Origin: Opitutales bacterium
Lineage (GTDB): Bacteria > Verrucomicrobiota > Verrucomicrobiia > Opitutales > JABSRG01
DNA: 64,000 bases
Direction of reading: 5' to 3'
NCBI GenBank assembly: GCA_028280845.1
Contig: JANQKZ010000038.1
Span: forward strand, 1-64,000
In this document: in pieces, positions 12,191-26,809 of the stretch
Layout of the letters: each line of letters begins with the position of its first letter
Numbering within the stretch: position 1 is the stretch's first letter
Program-made: the position numbers and the translations under genes
The notes under the pieces: model-generated
Database searches by the model: none
Seen by the model: only the letters and a program-made list of their open reading frames with translations
Told to the model about the DNA's origin: nothing

Positions 12191-12278
12191 AACCCTTCGC
12201 TTTCTTACACCATCACCTCGAATCCGCGCATTATTCGATTGATTGGCCATAGAAATAACCTTTATCCCTATCTTTGAG

Positions 12279-13181
12279 ATGTTTATGAAATTTTCCAGAC
12301 GCCTGTGTTGCCTCCTGGTTTTCACCGGGGTCCTGACGCCCAACGTTCAGGCACAAGAAGAGCTCCCCGTCTTTCTAGAGCCGGACTCCAATCTGACCCC
12401 CATTGCCACCCTCGATCCGACCCAGATCGATATGATCGACACCCTGCCCGTCCTCGATGCCAATCTCGCGGCCCAGGGCTGGATGTTTACCGAATACTTC
12501 GGCACCTTCGTGGGTTTTGTCGATCCGGAAACGGTGACCAAAAGCCTTGGACTCACCGCAAATACTCCGGTCTATTTACGGCCGGACCGGAACAGCCCCG
12601 TGCTGGCCCTCATCCAGGAAAACGACCCAGTCGAAATTATTCGCGTGGGCACCGACTGGACAGAGGTGGAATTTAAGAAGCTGGTCCCCGTATACTTCCA
12701 GATACCTCAGGAAACGGATACTCTTCCCCAGACCGAAGATCCCTCCATGACAGGCCCGGCAGTTCTCCCTCCGGTAACGGATGCACCTATCCCCGTGGAC
12801 CCCCTTAGCCGGACCACGGAAAGTGCTGAGCTGGAGGAGCTCGACCCCATCGAAACTCCACCCGTTATTACGCCCGGCGGTTTGGAAGAGGACGAAGCAT
12901 CGCCCACCATTGTTCCCCGCGGTGCCCCTGCGGTCGACATCCCCAGAATGATTCAGGGAAAACTTCGTCCAGCCAATCGGGTCTTTGGCTTCGCCCCGAA
13001 GTATCGTTATGAGCTCCAGAGCGGCACGAAGAAACGAATTGCCTGGGTCGATCTATCCGAGGTCATGGTCCACTCCCTCTCGGATTACGAATTTAAGCAG
13101 GTCATCGTTTACGGAGAGATTGTGGAGCTCTCCAGTGGACCTCCGCTTGTTAAGGCAAAGACCATTCGGCTTCAGTTCTAA
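12279..13181 (+). CDS. Secreted protein with SH3-like domain, proline/acid-rich middle
   Basis: A protein of about 300 residues that I cannot name. A signal peptide covers the first 25 residues or so (hydrophobic LCCLLVFTGVLTP, cleavage near VQAQ). Residues about 60-140 resemble a bacterial SH3 domain, with AQGWMFTEYFGTFVGFVD and later VYLRPDRNSPVLALI. The middle is low-complexity and rich in Pro, Glu and Thr. The C-terminal 80 residues form a second beta-rich segment. It is probably periplasmic or envelope-bound. The start is ATG at 12279 or 12285; an upstream TTG at 12243 would destroy the signal peptide layout. The RDD membrane gene follows 27 bases later, suggesting one transcript. Confidence 0.75.
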   Translation: MFMKFSRRLCCLLVFTGVLTPNVQAQEELPVFLEPDSNLTPIATLDPTQIDMIDTLPVLDANLAAQGWMFTEYFGTFVGFVDPETVTKSLGLTANTPVYLRPDRNSPVLALIQENDPVEIIRVGTDWTEVEFKKLVPVYFQIPQETDTLPQTEDPSMTGPAVLPPVTDAPIPVDPLSRTTESAELEELDPIETPPVITPGGLEEDEASPTIVPRGAPAVDIPRMIQGKLRPANRVFGFAPKYRYELQSGTKKRIAWVDLSEVMVHSLSDYEFKQVIVYGEIVELSSGPPLVKAKTIRLQF

Positions 13182-13208
13182 TCGGCCCGCGGTCAATAAC
13201 CTGCTAAG

Positions 13209-13865
13209 ATGGTTGCCCCGGAGGATTTATCTCCCGAAGAAGCGCCTCCTGGTGGACCCGGGGAGCGACAATCGGCTACGAATGTCCGGGAGGCGGTATT
13301 TGGAGACGGAGGGCCGCTTCCCGCCGCACGGCTCGGCCAGCGCTTCATTGCCTTTTCTCTCGATGTCCTCCTGGTCGGGGCTTTTATCGGTCTAATCCTG
13401 TTTCGCTTTGTTCTCCCCGAGTTCTACCCCAGCGAATATCAGGAGCTCATGCAGTGGTACCAGTCGACCAGTGATTCTATTGAAGAAGGGGAAACGCCTC
13501 TACAGTCAATGGAACGGGAATCCCTTCCCGAGCCCATTTGGAAACTCATGCTATTTATTCAGAACTTTATCGTCATGGGGTTTTGGCTCTACTTTGGGGT
13601 GTGTGAATCCTTTTTCCAGGGGAAGACACTCGGGAAACGGGTATTCCGGCTGAAAGTGGTCGGCATTCGGAATCTAGGTCATCTCAACCTTGGGCCGGCC
13701 CTGTTGCGTTCGCTTTTAAAAACCCTCTGCCTTTTCACCCTCTTCCCGCTGTTCCTGATCAGCTTCGTTCTCGTCTTTTTTGTCAAGTATCGTCGCGCTG
13801 GACATGACCTCGTGTCGCAAAGTATTGTCATCGAGGATAATTTGGAAATAGTGGAAGCCGAATAA
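13209..13865 (+). CDS. RDD-family membrane protein
   Basis: A 218-residue protein with an RDD domain. After a 45-residue Pro/Gly-rich cytoplasmic lead come LGQRFIAFSLDVLLVGAFIG, holding the conserved Arg and Asp of the family, then a loop, a second helix (IVMGFWLYFGV) and a third hydrophobic region near the C-terminus (FTLFPLFLISFVLVFF). GKTLGKRVFRLKVV between them is characteristic. RDD proteins are of mostly unknown role; some act in ion or sodium transport. It follows the SH3-like secreted protein gene closely and probably shares its transcript. Confidence 0.85.
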   Translation: MVAPEDLSPEEAPPGGPGERQSATNVREAVFGDGGPLPAARLGQRFIAFSLDVLLVGAFIGLILFRFVLPEFYPSEYQELMQWYQSTSDSIEEGETPLQSMERESLPEPIWKLMLFIQNFIVMGFWLYFGVCESFFQGKTLGKRVFRLKVVGIRNLGHLNLGPALLRSLLKTLCLFTLFPLFLISFVLVFFVKYRRAGHDLVSQSIVIEDNLEIVEAE

Positions 13866-13953
13866 GAGATTAACTCGCCCTCCAAGAGTCTCGACTTTTC
13901 CATCCGGAATGGCCCACACTATGGTTTCCCATATTGATTAAAAGCGCCATTTT

Positions 13954-15132
13954 ATGAATTCTTCGGAAGTAACCGAGAACGAACCGAAACTGCCAACCAC
14001 TTCCAGGGCTCCCTGGTCGTTAGCCCAAAAACAGGCTCCAAAAATCCTGGTAGTCGACGACCAGCCCATAAATATCAAGCTGCTCCAGCGTAAATTGGAA
14101 CGGCAGGGGATGGAAGTTACCGTTGCCTACAACGGCAAGGAATGTCTCAAACAGGTGGAAGCCTTTACCCCGGACCTCATCCTGCTCGATATCATGATGC
14201 CTGAGATGGATGGCATTGAAACCTGCAACCATCTTAAAAGTAATCCTAAGACGGAGACTATTCCAATCATCTTCATCACAGCCAAGGCGTCCAAGGAAGG
14301 AAAGCTCGAAGGCCTGGGAGCAGGAGCCGTCGACTATATCACCAAACCGATCGACCTCGATGAGACCCTGGCCCGGGTCAATACCCAGCTGCGGCTTCAA
14401 GATATGTTCCGCGAAAACCTCGAACTCCAGCGCAGGCTGGGAGAGACCCGACGCTCAGCGGCAGTGGGAGCCATCACCCAGGGCATCGCTCACAATCTGA
14501 ACAATCTACTGGGAGTAGTCGTTGGCTATCTCGACCTGATTAAGGCAGGGTCCAAAAGCCCCGACATGGTTGAGCGCAGTGTGGGGCTGATGGACAATGC
14601 AATTGATCGCATGGTCACCATCATCCGCCAACTGAGTTCGATTGCCCGCAATGATCGCCTGGAACTCAAACCGATCAATCTCCGCGATCTCATTATTGCC
14701 TCAGTCAATCGCTTTAAATCGGACAACGGAATCGAGACGGATATTCAGATTCAATCGACGGTCCCCGCAGATTTTAAGTTGAGTGCCAACCTCGAAGTAT
14801 TTGAGTCGGTTCTCAGCTCAATCCTGATCAATGCATGGGAAGCGTACGGAGACGATCATGAGGGTCCACGCCCCATCGAGGTCATTACCGAAATTGTTCA
14901 GGAATCCCGCCAACGCGTCCTCATGATGTACATCAACGATGAAGGTCTTGGCATTTCCCCGGAAGTGGCGGAAACCATGTTTGAACCCTTCATCACCACT
15001 AAAACCAGCGTAGGTCGGGGCATGGGCCTTACCATCGCCCGCCACGCCCTCCGTAATTTAGGCGCAGATATCTACGTAGCCACCCGCAAAGACACGGGTG
15101 TTGTCGCCCAGATTCGCTATCCCCTTATCTGA
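13954..15132 (+). CDS. Receiver-histidine kinase hybrid
   Basis: A 392-residue two-component protein with the receiver domain first. The receiver occupies about residues 29-150, with acidic Asp35-Asp36, the phospho-acceptor Asp79 in LILLDIMMPEMDG and the conserved Lys in YITKPID. A helical linker leads to an H-box, GIAHNLNNLLG, with the probable phosphorylated His180. The ATP-binding domain has an N-box in NAWEAYGD, a G1 box in DEGLGIS, and F and G2 boxes in EPFITTK and GRGMGLTIA. There is no membrane segment, so the signal arrives through phosphorylation or protein contact. No separate partner regulator lies next to it. The domain assignment is firm; the pathway is unknown. Confidence 0.92.
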   Translation: MNSSEVTENEPKLPTTSRAPWSLAQKQAPKILVVDDQPINIKLLQRKLERQGMEVTVAYNGKECLKQVEAFTPDLILLDIMMPEMDGIETCNHLKSNPKTETIPIIFITAKASKEGKLEGLGAGAVDYITKPIDLDETLARVNTQLRLQDMFRENLELQRRLGETRRSAAVGAITQGIAHNLNNLLGVVVGYLDLIKAGSKSPDMVERSVGLMDNAIDRMVTIIRQLSSIARNDRLELKPINLRDLIIASVNRFKSDNGIETDIQIQSTVPADFKLSANLEVFESVLSSILINAWEAYGDDHEGPRPIEVITEIVQESRQRVLMMYINDEGLGISPEVAETMFEPFITTKTSVGRGMGLTIARHALRNLGADIYVATRKDTGVVAQIRYPLI

Positions 15133-15144
15133 GGCTCCGCCTCA
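15130..15144 (+). terminator. Hairpin at the kinase stop codon
   Basis: TGAGGC (15130-15135, including the stop codon) pairs with GCCTCA (15139-15144) over a 3-base loop. No T run follows directly, so it may serve a Rho-type end or RNA stability rather than intrinsic termination. A second inverted repeat, GAGTGAAA (15145-15152) and TTTCACTC (15201-15208), follows. Confidence 0.35.
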
Positions 15145-15235
15145 GAGTGAAAAGGATAGGCTAATCATCTCTTTGGGGTGTCCGCATTTTTCATTTTCAC
15201 TTTCACTCCTCAAATCACCAACCTAAGCTGGCGGT

Positions 15236-16045
15236 ATGATCAAAGTCGCATTCTTAGGCGCTGGACGCATGGCGGAAGCTATGGTTCGAGGGATGATTGC
15301 CCAACAGGCTTGCCGACCCGAAGAAATTGGGTGCATGAGCGGATCGGGTAAAACCGCCCGGACCCTCGCCGAGGCGACCGGTATTCATCATGTGCCGGAC
15401 ATGCGGGAACTGGTCACCGAGGCCGCCACCTCCATTCTCGCTTTTAAGCCACACCAGCTCCAATCCATGCCCCCATCCCTGGCCGATTGGACCGCTGGCA
15501 AATGTATCATTTCTGTGCTGGCCGGAATCCCGATCCATCGGCTTTTTCACCAGTTTCCTATGGCCGAAAACATTATTCGAGCCATGCCCAACACTCCTTC
15601 TGCCATTAGCCAGGGAATGACCGGGTACTCATGGTTAAAGGCACCGGAACTTAGCGCCGAGAGAATCATCGAACAGGTATTGGTGCCACTCGGACCAGCA
15701 ATTGAGGTGGAAGAACGACTTATTGATGCGGTCACGGGCATCAGTGGCAGCGGAGTAGCCTTCGTTTTTGAGTTTGTGCGGGGGCTTCGCAACGCCGGAG
15801 TCATCCAGGGCATCCCAGAAGACAAAGCCCATACCTTTGCTATTCAAACCCTCCTCGGAGCAGCTATGCTCTTAAAGCAAACCGGACAATCTCCCGAAGA
15901 CCTGATCGCCCAAGTAGTTTCTAAGGGAGGAACCACTGAGGCGGGTCTGACCTACCTCAATTCTGAAGGATTTGAAGAGCTTATTCACGGGGCGGTAGCG
16001 GCCGCCACCCACCGGTCTCAGGAAATTTCCGGGCATTTCCAATAA
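15236..16045 (+). CDS. proC: Pyrroline-5-carboxylate reductase
   Basis: A 269-residue P5C reductase, which converts 1-pyrroline-5-carboxylate to L-proline with NAD(P)H, the last step of proline synthesis. The N-terminal Rossmann motif is AFLGAGRMAEAMVRG. The family signature appears as AVTGISGSGVAFVFEFV near residue 165, followed by the C-terminal dimerisation helix with KGGTTEAGL at about 222-230, where the Thr-rich loop binds substrate. Length is normal. It stands alone, with its stop two bases from the end of the convergent cupin gene. Confidence 0.95.
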   Translation: MIKVAFLGAGRMAEAMVRGMIAQQACRPEEIGCMSGSGKTARTLAEATGIHHVPDMRELVTEAATSILAFKPHQLQSMPPSLADWTAGKCIISVLAGIPIHRLFHQFPMAENIIRAMPNTPSAISQGMTGYSWLKAPELSAERIIEQVLVPLGPAIEVEERLIDAVTGISGSGVAFVFEFVRGLRNAGVIQGIPEDKAHTFAIQTLLGAAMLLKQTGQSPEDLIAQVVSKGGTTEAGLTYLNSEGFEELIHGAVAAATHRSQEISGHFQ

Positions 16046-18081: not shown

Positions 18082-19089
18082 TCAAATAAACACCATGCTC
18101 AGAATAGCTACGCTGAGTAGAATCCACGTCACCATCACGGCCCAATACAGGATCGGGTGCTCCTGCTTGGAAATCGGTTCCATAAAATGAGTCGTTCCAT
18201 ACTTCAGGTCGGGCAGTACCCACATCAGGAAAAAAATCCCCCAGGCCCATTCTGCTTTTGTCGCCAGAATAGTATAGACCATAACTAAGCCGGTGATGGC
18301 TCGCCACTTAATCCGGCCCTCAAGCTTCGGTGGGTAAATCTCCGGCCCTGATCTTTTTGTATCCGCCTCGGACACGAGAATCCCCGCTCCTTGCGGGTCC
18401 TCAGCGACAACATGGGTTCCGCTTTCATTTTCGTATGTGATGAGGACCTTTCCACCTTCGGCAATGATCAACCGCTTCGCCGCACTCAAGTCGGACACCG
18501 TGAGACGAACTGCCCAGTACTCTTTCTCCCCTTTCTCCGAATTCGGTGCAACCTGCAGGTAGGCTACGTGTTGGCCTCTTTCATCCTCTACCGCGTAGCG
18601 ATTCCCACTTTCTGGTTTAAAACTCCAACCAAAAAGCTCCGCATAAAACCCGGAAACCCGATTCAAATCACTGACAAACAGTTCACTCCCACCCCATTGT
18701 CCTGCCATCCCTATCTGAGGTGGACTATTCAACTTCTCGCCCTCATAGCAGGTGAACCCAGCCCCGGCGGGATCCCGGATCAAGGCAATCCGTCCACTCA
18801 ACGATTCCTCTTCTAATTCGACTTTTGCCCCCAAGGTCCGCGCCTTTTCCACCACCCTGTCTATATCCTCTACCTTGAAGTAGGTCATCCAGAAGGACGG
18901 CATCCGGATCTTCTGAAAGAAAGCAGGCATCTCGTAAATCCCGGCGACCTCACGATTACCAGACGACCCAATGCTATATCCGCTTCCATCGTCCATGGCA
19001 TGGAACGACCAGTGCATCAATCGACCGTAAAACCGGCGGGCTTGCTCTACATCGAAAGTCGATAGATCCGTCCAGATACAGGTCACCAT
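18082..19089 (-). CDS. Double VOC-domain protein with C-terminal membrane helices
   Basis: About 335 residues. Two vicinal-oxygen-chelate (glyoxalase-like) domains lie in tandem. The first covers about residues 1-115 (MVTCIWTDLSTFDVEQARRF), the second about 130-245 (GSELFVSDLNRVSGFYAELFG, then EDPQGAGILVSEAD). The last 80 residues hold two or three hydrophobic helices (VMVYTILATKAEWAWGIFFL and YWAVMVTWILLSVAILS). VOC proteins bind a metal and small molecules, but the role of this one is unknown. A membrane tail on a VOC protein is unusual. It is the last gene of the ACIII-cbb3 operon, 53 bases after the ccoP-like gene. The start is taken as ATG 19089; an upstream start would run into that gene. 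Confidence 0.8.
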   Translation of the reverse strand: MVTCIWTDLSTFDVEQARRFYGRLMHWSFHAMDDGSGYSIGSSGNREVAGIYEMPAFFQKIRMPSFWMTYFKVEDIDRVVEKARTLGAKVELEEESLSGRIALIRDPAGAGFTCYEGEKLNSPPQIGMAGQWGGSELFVSDLNRVSGFYAELFGWSFKPESGNRYAVEDERGQHVAYLQVAPNSEKGEKEYWAVRLTVSDLSAAKRLIIAEGGKVLITYENESGTHVVAEDPQGAGILVSEADTKRSGPEIYPPKLEGRIKWRAITGLVMVYTILATKAEWAWGIFFLMWVLPDLKYGTTHFMEPISKQEHPILYWAVMVTWILLSVAILSMVFI

Positions 19090-19142: not shown

Positions 19143-19847
19143 TTAATTCAGTGGGTAAACCTGAAGAATTTCGGTTCCATCCCAAGGTCCACGGTTCCCT
19201 AACTCTTCGCGCAGCGAAGTCACTTGAGATTCCAGAATAGGTTCGTAAGCATTGCCCCAGGCATTGCGCACATAGGTCATGACAGCAGCCAAATCACGAT
19301 CCCGGCGAAAAGCAGGATGGGCTCCGAATGCCGGCATATTCCCATTGTATTGGTTACCCTTTACTTCAATCGGGCCAACCAGGCCATGGAGCAGGATAGC
19401 GATCAACCGATCAGGATCGCCATCCACCCAGCGCGAATCCACTAAAGGCGGATATACCCCCGGCGACCCCATTCCACTGGTTTGGTGGCATGTAGCACAG
19501 TTGGCATTATAGAGCCTCTCTCCGCGAGGAATTAGCCAATCCAGGGAGTCGTAATCAATCGGAACCTGGGAGCTGGGATCCACCACCTCGAAATCCGTGG
19601 AATAGGCATACCATTTGAAGTGGCCGGAATTCGCTTCAAAATAAATCCCCGCCCAGAAAGTCAGGGCACAAAACACAAATAGCAGGTAGATGGGAATGGG
19701 AGAGAACCCCTCAGTAGGCTCTTCTTTCTCACGCATGAGCTGGGCGTGAACATCCTGCAACGAATCATCGCCCAGTTTGGCATGCTCAAGAATCATGTGC
19801 TGATCCTCAGGGGCAGGGGCTCCGGGTCTTTCTTCTGTGGTTGACAT
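19143..19847 (-). CDS. CcoP-like membrane-anchored monohaem cytochrome c
   Basis: A 234-residue cytochrome c with one membrane helix near residues 52-70 (YLLFVFCALTFWAGIYFE) and a periplasmic c-type domain. The haem site is CATCH, with the axial Met likely in NGNMPAFGAHP. The gene position after ccoN and ccoO, and the N-terminal layout, fit CcoP, the third subunit of cbb3 oxidase. Typical CcoP has two CxxCH sites and only one is present here. It would bring electrons to the CcoO/CcoN core. The spacing to ccoO (42 bases) and to the downstream VOC gene suits one operon. Confidence 0.85.
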   Translation of the reverse strand: MSTTEERPGAPAPEDQHMILEHAKLGDDSLQDVHAQLMREKEEPTEGFSPIPIYLLFVFCALTFWAGIYFEANSGHFKWYAYSTDFEVVDPSSQVPIDYDSLDWLIPRGERLYNANCATCHQTSGMGSPGVYPPLVDSRWVDGDPDRLIAILLHGLVGPIEVKGNQYNGNMPAFGAHPAFRRDRDLAAVMTYVRNAWGNAYEPILESQVTSLREELGNRGPWDGTEILQVYPLN

Positions 19848-19889: not shown

Positions 19890-20621
19890 TTATTCGGGCA
19901 GCTGAGCTTCAGGGAGGGAATAGTCCACTCTCAGGCTGAGAAGGTACTCCACCAGGGCCTCGCCTTCTGCGGTGGGGACGACTTCATAACCGGGAGGAGG
20001 AGCCGAGGGATGCCCATTTGGAATATTGACTACTAACTTGTCCGGTTTGCTCCCGACAGGTCTCACTTCATAAAGGAATCTGAACGACGGCATAAGAGAA
20101 CCCGGAGAAGTAATTGTGGGATCCCATAGGTGAGAGTGGTGCCAGTCACGGCCGGCAGCGTCAAACAGACGATTACCTACCGCTGCCAGGTCGGGTCCGG
20201 TCCGCATGGTACCTAACAACACGCGATCCTGGAGAACATAATCACGGGCTACGCTACCCCGCAGACCCCAGTTGCGAGCAATATCGTTGCCGAACCCTTC
20301 GTGCCTGACCTGTTGGGAATGGCAGTACATGCAACCCAGCGAAATGTAGACCTGCTTACCCTGTTGGGCCAGGCCAACGGGCGCTTGGGGGTGTAGAGTT
20401 TCACCAGGGGCCGGTACCCCTTCAACCTGAATGGAGCTACCGTCCTCTTTTTCCACCGAGGCCATCACTCCCGTGATGGCATCACCCGTATTTGGATTAA
20501 CATATTGTTCGGTAGCGGGCTCCAGAGCTCCCAGCTGCACATGGCTGGATAGCACGATCCCAGTCCAGCTGAAGGCTATGCAGAAGAAGATACCAAGAAA
20601 AAGGAGAGGAAGATTTTTCAT
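19890..20621 (-). CDS. ccoO: cbb3-type cytochrome c oxidase subunit II
   Basis: A 243-residue monohaem cytochrome c of the FixO/CcoO family. One N-terminal membrane helix is at residues 4-25. The haem site is CMYCHSQQ with the following RHEGFG. The segment [15 protein letters not shown] and [17 protein letters not shown] (with the likely axial Met) are typical of CcoO. It transfers electrons to the haem b/CuB core in CcoN on the periplasmic side. It starts three bases after the end of ccoN. Confidence 0.93.
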
Positions 20622-20624
20622 GTC

Positions 20625-22124
20625 CTATTTACCTCCTCCTACAGATTCGCCTTGCAGCAGAGTTGGACCTGACGCTTCAGGTCCGGGTTGAACGCGCAGG
20701 AGAATCCAGGCGAAATTAATGGCAAAGGCCAGGTGTCCAATCGTCAGCAATATGCCCGAAAAGGAGCGAGACATTAACCACGGTCGAGTATTCTGCATAA
20801 CCTCCAGGAAGGTATAAACTGGAACGCCATCCTCCGTCACTGCGTTGAGCTGCATACCTTGAATCCAGCCTCCAACATGCAGACCGACCAGCATCACCCC
20901 AATACCAATCGCACAGCACCAGAAGTGAATTCGAATCAACGTGGCGGATGGCCATTCGCGATAGATCAGACGAGGCAACATAAAGTAGATGGCCCCGAAC
21001 ATAATCATGGTGAAGAAGGCATATACCCCATGGTGAGCGTGGCCTACGGTGAAATGAGTAAAGTGGGTGATCTCATTGACGTCTCGGAGCGACATGGTCG
21101 ACCCGATCAGGCTAACCAGGGTGTAGGACATAGCCCCAAACACCACAAAGCGTAAAGTCGGACTTTTCCAGACTGCTGAATGCTCACCAACCACGGTTAG
21201 GTGGTGGTTAACCGCCGTCACAATCACAGGGATCACCATCATGACACTGCCCACGATACCGGCAGTCTGCAACCACACCGGAATCGGACCACCAATCAGA
21301 TGGTGCACCCCCGCCCAATTATAGAACAGAGCCAGCGACCAGAATCCCAGTATCGACAAGTAATAACTGTGGATGGGCTTGCCCAGCACTTTGGGTATGA
21401 GGTAATAGGCCGCAGCTAATCCCATAGGGGTCATCCAAAGCCCCAGGACGTTATGGGCAAACCACCAGTTAGTGATCGGTTGAATCACGCCACGAGCCGG
21501 TGCGAAAATGATCATAGTCTGCGAGACAAAATATAGCCAGGGGAACCAGAACAGCGCTCCCAGGATATACCACTGCGACACGTAAACGTGTTCCCCTCGG
21601 CGATATCTAAAAGATACGATACCCCACACCGCGATCAAGGCGTAGGAAAGGGTCAGGAGCGGCACGACGTTGGGTGGCATTTCGATCCATTCGACCGAGG
21701 TCATATCTCCGGCCAAAATCCCGTATATACCTACCGTCACCGCAATATTCCAGAACACACCAGCCGCATAAAGGAGCCCACCATGGCGGATTGGAGCCCG
21801 GCAGAGCCTGGCCATTAACCAGAGTCCAACCGCAAAGATCACATTATTCGACCAGCCATATATCATGGCGTTCAGGTGAGCAGAACGCACCCGGCCGAAC
21901 GTCCAGAAGGCCGATTCCGCCATGAATTCCGGGGTGTGACTCTTGATAGCAGCCATCAGCGCGAACACGGTCCCCGCCAATAGCCAGAGCACGGCAGAAA
22001 TCAAAAAGAGGAGAGCAGGTCCGCGCATCGAACGATCGATTACGGCTAGCTGGATCTGCTCAGACTCGCCCCGCCCTTTATAAGGGTTCAAGGCCTTGGT
22101 AAATGCTGTGGACAATGCGCTCAT
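20625..22124 (-). CDS. ccoN: cbb3-type cytochrome c oxidase subunit I
   Basis: A 499-residue subunit with about twelve membrane helices; it holds the low-spin haem b and the oxygen-reducing haem b3/CuB centre. Conserved His sites are visible: SAHLNAM for the low-spin haem, WWFAHNVLG and VHHLIGG for CuB, and HFTVGHAHHGVYAF for the two haem b ligands. Tyr in HSYYLSILG is a candidate for the cross-linked tyrosine. It reduces O2 to water and pumps protons in the cytoplasmic membrane. cbb3 enzymes have high oxygen affinity, which suggests growth at low oxygen. It follows ccoS by one base. Confidence 0.95.
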   Translation of the reverse strand: MSALSTAFTKALNPYKGRGESEQIQLAVIDRSMRGPALLFLISAVLWLLAGTVFALMAAIKSHTPEFMAESAFWTFGRVRSAHLNAMIYGWSNNVIFAVGLWLMARLCRAPIRHGGLLYAAGVFWNIAVTVGIYGILAGDMTSVEWIEMPPNVVPLLTLSYALIAVWGIVSFRYRRGEHVYVSQWYILGALFWFPWLYFVSQTMIIFAPARGVIQPITNWWFAHNVLGLWMTPMGLAAAYYLIPKVLGKPIHSYYLSILGFWSLALFYNWAGVHHLIGGPIPVWLQTAGIVGSVMMVIPVIVTAVNHHLTVVGEHSAVWKSPTLRFVVFGAMSYTLVSLIGSTMSLRDVNEITHFTHFTVGHAHHGVYAFFTMIMFGAIYFMLPRLIYREWPSATLIRIHFWCCAIGIGVMLVGLHVGGWIQGMQLNAVTEDGVPVYTFLEVMQNTRPWLMSRSFSGILLTIGHLAFAINFAWILLRVQPGPEASGPTLLQGESVGGGK

Positions 22125-22125
22125 G

Positions 22126-22377
22126 CTATAACCGGGTCCCCTCCTGTTCGGGTTGGATTCGGCGGGGCCGATCGATGTCTCTCAACTTACGTTTCCGTTG
22201 AGGAAATGCATCCTGGGTGACACCTTCGGGTTCATCCTCATCAAAAATAACGCGGGACCCTTTATCAAAGTCTTTTAACTGCCCCTTCTTGGACGCCCAC
22301 ATCAATCCATAGACGGCTGAGGCAAAAAAGGCCAAGCCCATGAGAAAAATAATAACAAGGTAAACGTTCCAGGTCAT
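22126..22377 (-). CDS. ccoS: cbb3 oxidase assembly protein CcoS
   Basis: An 83-residue membrane protein: one helix (residues 6-27, YLVIIFLMGLAFFASAVYGL), then WASKKGQLKDFDKGSRVIFDED, which matches the CcoS signature of Gly-Gln, an acidic patch and IFDED. CcoS is needed to insert haem and CuB into cbb3 oxidase. The C-terminal 40 residues are highly charged and longer than usual. It lies directly before ccoN, whereas in Proteobacteria it is normally in ccoGHIS. The assignment rests on the short motif and context. Confidence 0.8.
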   Translation of the reverse strand: MTWNVYLVIIFLMGLAFFASAVYGLMWASKKGQLKDFDKGSRVIFDEDEPEGVTQDAFPQRKRKLRDIDRPRRIQPEQEGTRL

Positions 22378-22392
22378 TCAGGTTGAGGGGTA

Positions 22393-22710
22393 TTATGGGG
22401 TTTTAGCTTGGTAAGCCTTAACCGTGAGCTCCATTGCGTCTTTCAGGGGCACTTTATAAACTCCTTTTTCGGCATCGACAACCTCAAGGGTATCGACCTT
22501 CGACGCCCAGGCACTTTCAGATTCCATACGGATTTGTAGACGTTGCTCCGCAGTTTGTGCGAGTGGATCGTCTGGGCGATTTGGCAAGTAGGCTAACCAC
22601 AGGACAAATGCGAAGAGCAGGATGGAACCGAGAGCCCCGATGACCGTTAAAGTCTGGTTGCTCAGGAAAGGTTCTTCCGGGGAAACGTCGTTATCGGTGG
22701 GATTACTCAT
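22393..22710 (-). CDS. Small single-helix membrane protein of the ACIII operon
   Basis: A 105-residue protein, beginning at the ATG at 22710 and overlapping the end of actF by eight bases. One membrane helix at about residues 20-42 (TVIGALGSILLFAFVLWLAY), then a soluble part with the segment GVYKVPLKDAMELTV. I recall similar segments in small proteins beside ACIII and caa3 oxidase genes in other bacteria, but cannot cite one. It may be an ACIII accessory subunit or an assembly factor. An upstream start in actF is possible but not favoured. Confidence 0.75.
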   Translation of the reverse strand: MSNPTDNDVSPEEPFLSNQTLTVIGALGSILLFAFVLWLAYLPNRPDDPLAQTAEQRLQIRMESESAWASKVDTLEVVDAEKGVYKVPLKDAMELTVKAYQAKTP

Positions 22711-24025
22711 GGCAATTGACAGCACTTTCGATGCGGGGATCGCGGATGGGGATAACTTCAACAGTCTTCATGCTCCGGAGGAAAGCCCAAACACAAATTC
22801 CACCTACGCCTACCAGGGCGGCAAGGTCGAAGACGATATCCAACCCATTGTAGATGACCGGACTTACAACATATCCCATGGGGTTGGCATCCGTGATCTC
22901 AACAGTCTTCTGACGGGGAATGATATTGTAGTAGAGATCCACCAAGTGGAACACGATAATCCAGGCACTGATGAACATCAGCCGAGAGGTGATCACCTTG
23001 GTCTTATACCAGAGCAGGTTAAGGAAGGGAAAAAGGAAGTGGAAAAAGACCAGGCCAAGCAACATCCAACCCCAGGCGCTCAGCCCGCCTTCAAGAGCGA
23101 AAAGACGGTCGTTAAACCAGTAGGTTTCTTCCGGGATGTTGGCATTGTAGATCAAAAAGTACTGGGAGAAAACGATATAGGCCCAAAACACGGTAAAGGC
23201 TAACAGCATACAGCCAAGGAGATACCGGTGTCCCCGATTGAAAAGCCCTCCACCCAAACGGCCATTTTGCATCATAAGAATACAGATGATAACTGCCGCC
23301 GCCGTAGCCCCGCGAATGGAAGCCGCAAAGAACCAGACCCCATACATGGTGGAGAACCAGTGGTAGGACAGGCTCATAAACCAATCAAAGGCGGCAAAGG
23401 TCGCCGCGAGCGCCGTGGCAATGATCCCAAAAGCGGAGAGGATCCGGGCTTGTCTGGCCCATTTCACATCGCCGTCCTGTTCCATCGTAAAGGATACCTT
23501 GCGGAGCCGCTCTGCAAGAAACACCAGGACCCCAAAATAGACCACAACCCGGGCAATAAAAAAGCCGACATTCAGGTAACCGCTCTTGGCTTGGTAGAGC
23601 ACATCGCTCGCCACCGTTTCTCCTCCAGGCAGGCTGTAGCTTGGATCCATCCATTTCCAGATCAGGCCGGGATAGCCGGAAAAGAGGGATACCAGGATAA
23701 GAGGAATAAATAGAAGGGCGAGCCACTTCATCGCGGCCAGGCCGTGCTCTAACTGCCGGCGGATAATCACGGGCCATCCCGCATCAAACACGTACCAGAT
23801 CATGATCAGGAACAGCATGCCGATTCCCAACGAGAGCCAGAAGGACAAGCCGAGCAACCAGCTCATAGCATAGCGGGAATTGTGTTGGCTGGCTCCGAGA
23901 AGGAGGCCAACCCCCGCCAGGGAGAGGCCGATAAAGCCGACAATCAATGCGATGGTGGAAAAATCCTTACCCTTGCCGGATGCGACGGCCTCAGGCACGG
24001 TTACGGATGCGGAATCAGCACTCAT
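22703..24025 (-). CDS. actF: Alternative Complex III integral membrane subunit ActF
   Basis: A 440-residue membrane protein with about ten helices, of the NrfD-like type that pairs with ActC in Alternative Complex III. ActF anchors the complex and helps form the quinone-side membrane unit. Features include a long hydrophobic N-terminal half and an aromatic C-terminal region. Its ATG overlaps the stop of actE by four bases, and it overlaps the next small membrane gene. Family assignment is by operon position, length and topology; exact catalytic residues are not clear by eye. Confidence 0.88.
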   Translation of the reverse strand: MSADSASVTVPEAVASGKGKDFSTIALIVGFIGLSLAGVGLLLGASQHNSRYAMSWLLGLSFWLSLGIGMLFLIMIWYVFDAGWPVIIRRQLEHGLAAMKWLALLFIPLILVSLFSGYPGLIWKWMDPSYSLPGGETVASDVLYQAKSGYLNVGFFIARVVVYFGVLVFLAERLRKVSFTMEQDGDVKWARQARILSAFGIIATALAATFAAFDWFMSLSYHWFSTMYGVWFFAASIRGATAAAVIICILMMQNGRLGGGLFNRGHRYLLGCMLLAFTVFWAYIVFSQYFLIYNANIPEETYWFNDRLFALEGGLSAWGWMLLGLVFFHFLFPFLNLLWYKTKVITSRLMFISAWIIVFHLVDLYYNIIPRQKTVEITDANPMGYVVSPVIYNGLDIVFDLAALVGVGGICVWAFLRSMKTVEVIPIRDPRIESAVNCHE

Positions 24026-24675
24026 AGACCCAGTTCCCTTTTCTGTTCGGGCGTCAATTCCGCCTCGGTTGCACTAAATACTTTCTGGAGGGCGCGCACA
24101 TAGAGCACTACAGCCCAACGCTCCTCCACCGTTAGCTTATCTCCATACCCCATCATGGTATTATACCCGTAGGTAATGGTGTTGTAGATGTTTCCATCCG
24201 GCCGTTGCCGGTAAATGTCGGTCGTCAGGTTCGACGCGTTGATTCCATAATTCAGGGTCACGCCATTGCCTTCGCCCAGTCCACCGTGACACACCGTGCA
24301 GAAAATATCATACTTTTGACGGCCCAGCTCCATTAGCTCATAGGTCACCGGGAGAGGAAACTCACTAATCTCATCGCCGTTTGCATCCTTACCGGTGAGC
24401 AACTCAGGCCGCTCTATGACCACGTTTTCGTATTCTCCGGAAAAGACGGCCACCTGGTTCAATCCGGTTCCCCGCACAACGGTTCCGCCCACTGGCATCC
24501 GGTCGTCCATCCGGTTCCCGTAAAACTGGTTTTCACCCTGGGGATGAAACTTCTGCTGGCGGTCCATATCAGGGAAGATATACAGCGGTGTTTTCTCCGT
24601 TTTCGTTCCTCGGAACCCTGCAATGGATATCACTGCAATGAGGGTAAAGGTGAAAAATATTAGAAAGTATTTCAT
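24022..24675 (-). CDS. actE: Alternative Complex III monohaem cytochrome ActE
   Basis: A 217-residue cytochrome c. An N-terminal membrane or lipoprotein-like segment (residues 3-20) is followed by the haem site CTVCHGGLGEGNG and a probable axial Met in NTMMGYGDKL. ActE is thought to pass electrons between the ActA haems and the terminal oxidase. The gene lies eight bases after actD and overlaps actF. Its length matches the family. Confidence 0.9.
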   Translation of the reverse strand: MKYFLIFFTFTLIAVISIAGFRGTKTEKTPLYIFPDMDRQQKFHPQGENQFYGNRMDDRMPVGGTVVRGTGLNQVAVFSGEYENVVIERPELLTGKDANGDEISEFPLPVTYELMELGRQKYDIFCTVCHGGLGEGNGVTLNYGINASNLTTDIYRQRPDGNIYNTITYGYNTMMGYGDKLTVEERWAVVLYVRALQKVFSATEAELTPEQKRELGL

Positions 24676-24683
24676 GACTGACG

Positions 24684-25244
24684 CTATTCGGGGAGATAAT
24701 CCACGCTGGTGGCTCCGAGTTTTTCGAGAAACCCGAATGTTTCATTCATTTCAAATTTTGGATCCTTCCGCTGGATCACCACAAAGAAGCGGTCGTCCGT
24801 TGCGTTCTTGAAGTCCGGATGGTTAAACACCGGGTGGTAGTATTGCGGCAGGAGATTCATGAGAAACATCCCTCCAAGCGTACCAAAAGCCGCCAGGAGA
24901 ATAGTCATTTCATAGGTGACCGGGAAGGGGAAGATCGGGCTATACAGGGGCTTACCACCAACGATCAAGGGGTAGTCAAAGTCGCCCATATACCAGACGA
25001 TCAGGTTCCCCAGAATGAATCCGGTTATCCCTCCGATAAAGGTAAAAATCGGCACCTTAGACCGCTTCAACCCGCTCGCTTTCTCCAGGCCATGGACCGG
25101 AAACGGGGTATAGGAGTCAAATTTCTCATAACCGGCCTGGTGAATATTCTCGCAGGCATGATATATATCCTGCGCGTTTTCAAAGGAAGCGATGATGCCC
25201 CAGACGCGTTTCTTCTCAGAAGTGGTTTCAGTTGGTGCGTTCAT
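24684..25244 (-). CDS. actD: Alternative Complex III subunit ActD (DUF3341)
   Basis: A 186-residue protein of the DUF3341/ActD family with two hydrophobic helices in the middle (about residues 65-90 and 108-132) and a cytoplasmic N-terminus. The N-terminal fold resembles a ferredoxin-like domain ([20 protein letters not shown]). It makes contacts inside the membrane part of ACIII and carries no cofactor. Its ATG overlaps the stop of actC by four bases. Confidence 0.9.
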
Positions 25245-26809
25245 TGGTCTACACCCTCCTCTCCGTGATGGTGAACGGGGGTTTTGGCTTTATGGGTATG
25301 GCTGTCACGATGGTCTGTCCCGTGGTAGTGGGGGTCGCCCTGCGGCATCGATAAAGCCTTAACTTCCGACAAAGCCATTAGCGGTAGGAAACGGATAAAC
25401 AGGAGAAAGAGGACCGAGAACAGACCGAAGGTTCCGAAATAGGTAAAGATGTCGACCATGGTCGGCGAATAGTAGCCCCACGAACTGGGAAGAAAGTCAT
25501 TGGCCAGCGAAGTCACTGTAATGACGAAGCGCTCAAACCACATCCCCACGTTGACGAAAATCGATATGACCCAGACTAACGCCGCATTGTCGCGAACGGA
25601 TTTAAACCAGAATAACTGGGGACTGATCACATTACAGCTAATCATAATCCAGTAGGCCCAGGAGTATTGGCCGAAAGCCCGGTTGACGAAGGCAAATCCC
25701 TCGTAGGGATTCGCCCCATACCAGGCGATGAAGAACTCCATTGCATAGGCGTATCCTACCATCGATCCGGTCGCCAGGGTGATCTTACACATATTATCGA
25801 TGTGCGCCTGGGTTATGAGATCATGGAGTCCGTAAAGCGCCCGCAGGGGGAGCATGAGGGTCAACACCATACCAAATCCGGAAAAGATGGCCCCCGCCAC
25901 GAAGTATGGAGGAAAGATCGTCGTGTGCCACCCGGGAAGGATAGATGCGGCAAAGTCGAAGGACACGATGGTGTGCACCGATAGCACCAACGGTGTACAA
26001 AGCCCGGCCAGGAGGAGGTAGGCCATTTCAAAGTTGCGCCAATGGTTGGTGGAACCACGCCAACCGGCAGAAAGGATCGTATACAGATAAAGGCGAAACT
26101 TCTGGTAACCGATTTGGAAGGCCTTTTCGACGGCCCCGCTAGCCCCTTCAATCCTGCGCTTAGCTACCTCTCCACACCGGTCACGGATGGTTGCGAAGTC
26201 GGGAATCATTCCCATACACCAGAAGAGGAAAGAAACCGTGCCATAGGTGGAGACGGCGAACACATCCCATTCAAGGGGGGAGCGGAACTGTGGCCAGATC
26301 CAATTGGCATTCGGGAGCGGGAACAACCACCAGGCAAACCAGACTCGACCCACATGGAAGAGCGGAAAGATACCGGCACAAACCACCGCGAAAATGGTCA
26401 TGGCTTCCGCTGCCCGGTTAATCGAGGTGCGCCAGCTCTGTTTTAAGAGGCAGAGGATGGCGGAAATCAGAGTTCCAGCGTGGCCGATCCCGATCCAGAA
26501 TACGAAGTTGACGATGGCCCATCCCCAATTGACTGGGTTATTCAGACCCCAGACTCCGACCCCTGTCGATACCAGGTAGGTCAAACCCATCAGGGTAAAG
26601 CTGGCTGTCAGGGCGGCAACGGTAAATGCGATCCACCACCAGGTCGGAGTCTTCACCTCCACAATGCTACAGATCAGATCCGTGATATAGTGAAAACTTC
26701 GGTTGTTTTCGACAAGGGGACGTTGCGGCAGCGAGACCGGGTCCACCTTCTTCAGCACCTCCGGCTTTGGTGCTTGTACTGTTTGAAATTCTTCCGCTGA
26801 TAATGCCAT
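25241..26809 (-). CDS. actC: Alternative Complex III NrfD-like membrane subunit ActC
   Basis: A 522-residue NrfD/PsrC-type protein with about ten membrane helices. It would form the menaquinol-binding site at the periplasmic side, next to the Fe-S clusters of ActB. The tail after residue 480 is cytoplasmic and His-rich ([24 protein letters not shown]), a metal-binding-like tail that is mirrored in the ActB C-terminus. It follows actB by 18 bases and overlaps actD. Topology and length agree with the family. Confidence 0.92.

Follow-up and report, generated by a model that had tools for sequence, protein, structure and literature searches.

A double-VOC protein with a three-helix membrane tail from an Opitutales bacterium, and occurrence of the tail alone and with other enzymes

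The window, i.e., the whole stretch of 64,000 nucleotides analysed from one contig of an Opitutales bacterium, encodes a protein in which two VOC modules are followed by a three-helix membrane tail, and this fusion was confirmed as real. The double-VOC kind is already known. The new element is the uncatalogued tail, which judged by its sequence is a separate, putatively mobile module, found alone or on other enzymes. We tentatively read the window protein as a membrane-anchored double-VOC binder or enzyme whose target is a lipophilic electrophile or oxidation product, with the adjacency of its gene to a respiratory operon specific to the lineage, and we give this reading somewhat less than an even chance. 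The positions of all features are collected in Table 1.

Table 1. Features of the fusion gene and its upstream neighbours, with positions in the window.
Feature	Positions	Strand	Basis
Double VOC + membrane tail gene	18082..19089	minus	ORF, translation, Pfam; 335 aa
VOC module 1, residues ~1-117	18739..19089	minus	Pfam stretches, model, orthologue alignment
VOC module 2, residues ~130-243	18361..18702	minus	Glyoxalase_6 at 140-236, model
Membrane tail, residues 259-335	18085..18315	minus	model, hydropathy, homologous tails
Tail helix 259-276	18262-18315		model
Tail helix 282-302	18184-18246		model
Tail helix 312-334	18088-18156		model
ccoP-like cytochrome c gene, upstream neighbour	19143..19847	minus	Pfam/NCBIfam, synteny; context, outside the system
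ccoO, ccoN, small ORF, ActF, ActE, ActD, ActC-like genes	19890..26809	minus	Pfam, tblastn synteny; context only

The open reading frame and its translation place the ATG of the fusion gene at 19089 on the minus strand. Pfam recognized two VOC stretches, and the scores assigned the protein to the VOC superfamily (Glyoxalase_6, 9.8e-15 and 55.6 bits with a cut-off of 23.6; Glyoxalase, 1.9e-12 and 48.1 bits with a cut-off of 20.6). The AlphaFold2 model, with a mean pLDDT of 77, placed two VOC modules within residues 1-243, followed by three helices. It was built from a five-sequence alignment of the window protein and four soluble double-VOC proteins of Arthrobacter and Pseudarthrobacter. The tail was modelled at low confidence, with block means of about 37-78, and no relative in the alignment carries it, while prediction from the single sequence was poor (pLDDT 45). 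By hydropathy, each of the nine tails compared has three hydrophobic segments. Solubility is typical of VOC proteins, and the arrangement described in the sequence-only reading, two VOC copies and then two or three hydrophobic helices, was borne out by Pfam, model and hydropathy. The protein starts straight at the first VOC strand, and no signal segment is apparent. The first tail helix is preceded by basic residues (KWR). Under the positive-inside rule these two features suggest that the VOC part should face the cytoplasm, a putative orientation.

The fold search covered residues 1-243. The best match was Rv0577 from Mycobacterium tuberculosis (PDB 3oxh; Z 28.4, rmsd 2.0, 230 residues, 28% identity), likewise with two VOC modules in one chain, and it was also matched by sequence profile (E 1.4e-29). 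However, the match stops at residue 243, and Rv0577 has no counterpart of the tail. Second was AbxF, a spiroketal-forming VOC enzyme with the double-VOC fold (PDB 8stb, 9jt3, 8eo9; Z 24.8, rmsd 2.4, 209 residues, 26% identity), which differs in having no membrane tail and in serving antibiotic biosynthesis according to the PDB title. The two VOC modules superposed over their whole length, and the protein was therefore counted among the Rv0577/AbxF-like ones.

The full-length fusion was found by alignment in three other genomes at 43-47% identity, namely G029, from another family of the same order, and G071 and G227, both from another class of the phylum. The sequence-only reading had staked itself on the fusion recurring in relatives, and these three carry it. 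This recurrence, together with tail-profile scores far above those of shuffled sequences (given below), indicates that the architecture is more than chance. It is also rare: an intact tail was present in two of the 273 genomes sampled within the order, and a fused tail in two of the 288 sampled within the class of G071. In a sample of 337 genomes from the phylum, a close VOC core (E < 1e-100) occurred in three genomes, all with the tail, and the next relative, in G138, reached merely 2.4e-31. The sporadic spread of the fusion suggests transfer and loss. A contig scan returned relatives from Arthrobacter and Pseudarthrobacter only, all of them soluble. Nothing was confirmed in viral contigs with the double-VOC profile, and the tail search gave no match in phage records, nor in viral contigs with one tail sequence as query; a phage or virus origin was rejected on these grounds. 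In the open-access literature searched, neither the fusion nor the tail was found described. In G031, the second half of a tail (L025:8805-8933, 1.7e-7) lies behind a sulfatase gene and seems to be what is left of a lost copy.

In at least three phyla the tail is attached to, or encoded next to, enzymes of three unrelated types, its spread outside the phylum being read from plasmid records. In two Ruegeria plasmids, a search of these records gave a stand-alone tail protein of 84 aa, encoded between a TetR gene and the genes of a Rieske oxygenase and its reductase. In Vibrio, a 94-aa stand-alone tail ORF immediately precedes a radical SAM gene, for which the best models were BchE and HpnJ, both below cut-off. 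In Aureibacter, the counterpart of this radical SAM protein (63% identical to that of Vibrio) bears the tail as a C-terminal fusion, and a tail-less double-VOC gene (37% identical) follows two genes downstream. In G164, an 80-aa copy stands just ahead of a Rieske gene. All of these share a homologous tail with the window protein but, unlike it, do not carry it on VOC modules. A profile made from the four VOC-fused tails only gave the unfused tails 43.7-54.5 bits, compared with a best score of 17.9 in 10,000 shuffles, so the tails outside the VOC fusions are regarded as genuine homologues. The tail has no catalogued family: Pfam returned one weak match in one member (INT_rpt, 0.0041) and NCBIfam none, and a PDB sequence search with the tail gave no meaningful match. 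We consider the tail a possible horizontally mobile three-helix module that would bring unrelated redox or radical enzymes to the membrane, fused or as a separate protein, a view held with little short of even confidence. The enzymes so recruited would be the double VOC, a B12-type radical SAM protein and a Rieske oxygenase, the double VOC being a client with a membrane-dissolved substrate.

Several features of these loci were recorded in addition. The two Ruegeria plasmids (L026:4020-7545 and L028:3957-7470) share a conserved cluster of DUF2141, TetR, stand-alone tail, Rieske oxygenase and PaaE-like reductase. On the Aureibacter plasmid pAT1, a Crp/Fnr-family gene lies upstream of the radical SAM-tail gene (L029:3741-5255), and the wider region holds a YceI-family gene and c-type cytochromes. 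The Rieske gene of G164 (L037:10002-11049) consists of two overlapping ORFs in different frames, for which a frameshift or a fault in the assembly may be responsible; the tail gene there is closely preceded by a tRNA-like sequence.

The neighbourhoods differ among the four fusions and indicate no single pathway. In G029, a TetR gene and two AhpC/TSA-family genes precede the fusion gene on the same strand. In G227, the fusion gene converges on a TetR-like ORF (read from sequence alone), and past this ORF come genes for a haloalkane dehalogenase and a KefF-like flavodoxin-fold reductase. Of the three orthologues, two are thus in detoxification-like neighbourhoods, while in G071 the fusion gene is followed by a DUF4437 cupin gene and the neighbours are not clearly detoxifying. 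An accessory or detoxification factor tied to respiration had been proposed from the sequence of the window; the detoxification part is plausible in view of the TetR, AhpC/TSA, dehalogenase and KefF-like neighbours, whereas the respiratory tie was not supported, as described below. A VOC gene at a locus with a TetR-type regulator is known from nemRA-gloA of E. coli (PMC3739934), of which G029 and G227 are reminiscent; we take that locus as an analogue for the possible regulation of such a gene and not as a sign that the function is shared.

Taken as a mechanism, the two VOC modules would assemble in the manner of Rv0577 and AbxF to give a cavity on the cytoplasmic side, while the C-terminal three-helix module would hold the pair at the membrane. 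At the surface of the membrane the pair may act on a lipophilic electrophile or oxidation product, by binding or by conversion, in a role within the stress or detoxification repertoire. Orientation, anchoring role, substrate class and stress induction are the parts that we infer. The substrate class is suggested by the membrane anchoring, by the families of the tail partners and by neighbours of the TetR, AhpC/TSA, dehalogenase and KefF-like kinds, taken with the loss of the GloA metal ligands (below), which makes the protein probably no glyoxalase I. The partner families, BchE/HpnJ-like radical SAM proteins and Rieske oxygenases, include enzymes for hydrophobic substrates, and the recurring membrane-anchored VOC pair itself suggests a lipophilic substrate. 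Naming the tail would aid the annotation of small hypothetical membrane proteins, and would point to enzymes acting on membrane-dissolved substrates.

The same Rieske and radical SAM partners could be equally compatible with biosynthesis. The window protein would then be a membrane-bound VOC enzyme similar to AbxF, shaping a hydrophobic natural product, pigment or lipid, with the tail bringing it to a membrane-dissolved intermediate. The rank of AbxF in the fold search and the BchE/HpnJ-like and Rieske models matched by the other tail partners are in line with this, but no biosynthetic cluster is evident around the four fusions, and the radical SAM gene of the Vibrio/Aureibacter type was not found in the fusion genomes at E<=1e-20, save for more distant members in G071. 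We regard the biosynthetic role as unlikely, although it deserves some weight.

A ligand sensor or scaffold, in which VOC modules devoid of a catalytic metal bind a small-molecule ligand and signal via the membrane module or a partner, was judged a little less probable still. It is in agreement with the comparison to E. coli GloA, a single-module metalloenzyme of VOC fold whose metal ligands we take to be His5, Glu56, His74 and Glu122. The corresponding residues of the window protein are Trp, Glu, Met and Thr in module 1 and Gly, Val, Ala and Leu in module 2, according to a low-identity alignment in which the FY and DPxG motifs stay in register. A weak similarity to the model of the AfsK-binding protein KbpA, well under cut-off, points the same way. 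However, no signalling partner gene is conserved next to the fusions, and the core of module 1, highly conserved in the orthologue alignment, suits a binding site of either kind.

The fusion gene does sit directly after the ccoP-like gene, as had been noted from the sequence, on the same strand with a gap of 53 bp. A consensus scan of the gap, a weak test, found neither a promoter-like nor a terminator-like site, and co-transcription with the operon is possible. The position, the lack of a terminator-like site and the modelled membrane helices would fit a protein that serves the ACIII/cbb3 chain as an accessory subunit or in its assembly, with the helices docking on the oxidase. In the operon, the name ActD rests on PF11821, and the names ActC, ActE and ActF on gene order and similarity. 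By tblastn, the ActC-D-E-F, ccoN-O and ccoP-like operon was kept in 20 of 20 relatives examined, with the ccoP-like gene undetected in one of them (G022) and the small ORF in several. None of the 20, the same-family genome G001 included, had the VOC gene behind the operon by tblastn synteny, its place being taken by different ORFs. G029 has both elements, but contig 15 carries the operon and contig 11 the fusion. Since the VOC gene was missing behind the operon in all 20 relatives and the two are apart in G029, the adjacency in the window is considered lineage-specific, and the position is probably without functional meaning. The other fusions are all in non-oxidase contexts. The sequence-only reading had also looked to related contexts for the tail, and as regards the oxidase they turned out to be unrelated: no other copy found adjoins one. 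A respiratory accessory factor was rejected as the leading reading by the synteny test in 20 relatives, and we hold such a role to be very improbable.

A membrane-bound, metal-dependent glyoxalase I for methylglyoxal, to which VOC family membership alone might lead, is the least credible of the alternatives and scarcely to be expected, since the GloA ligands are replaced at three of four positions in module 1 and at all four in module 2, which disfavours ordinary glyoxalase I chemistry.

Two further observations concern the surroundings of the gene. The small ORF at 22393-22761, between the ActF-like gene and ccoN, is present in most of the 20 relatives and has no Pfam family above cut-off; it may be a small subunit belonging to the operon. 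The proC, response-regulator/kinase and SH3-like genes at 12243-16045 resemble genes that follow the oxidase operon in G030 (L083), and the VOC, esterase and cupin genes of the window may thus lie between two anciently linked blocks.
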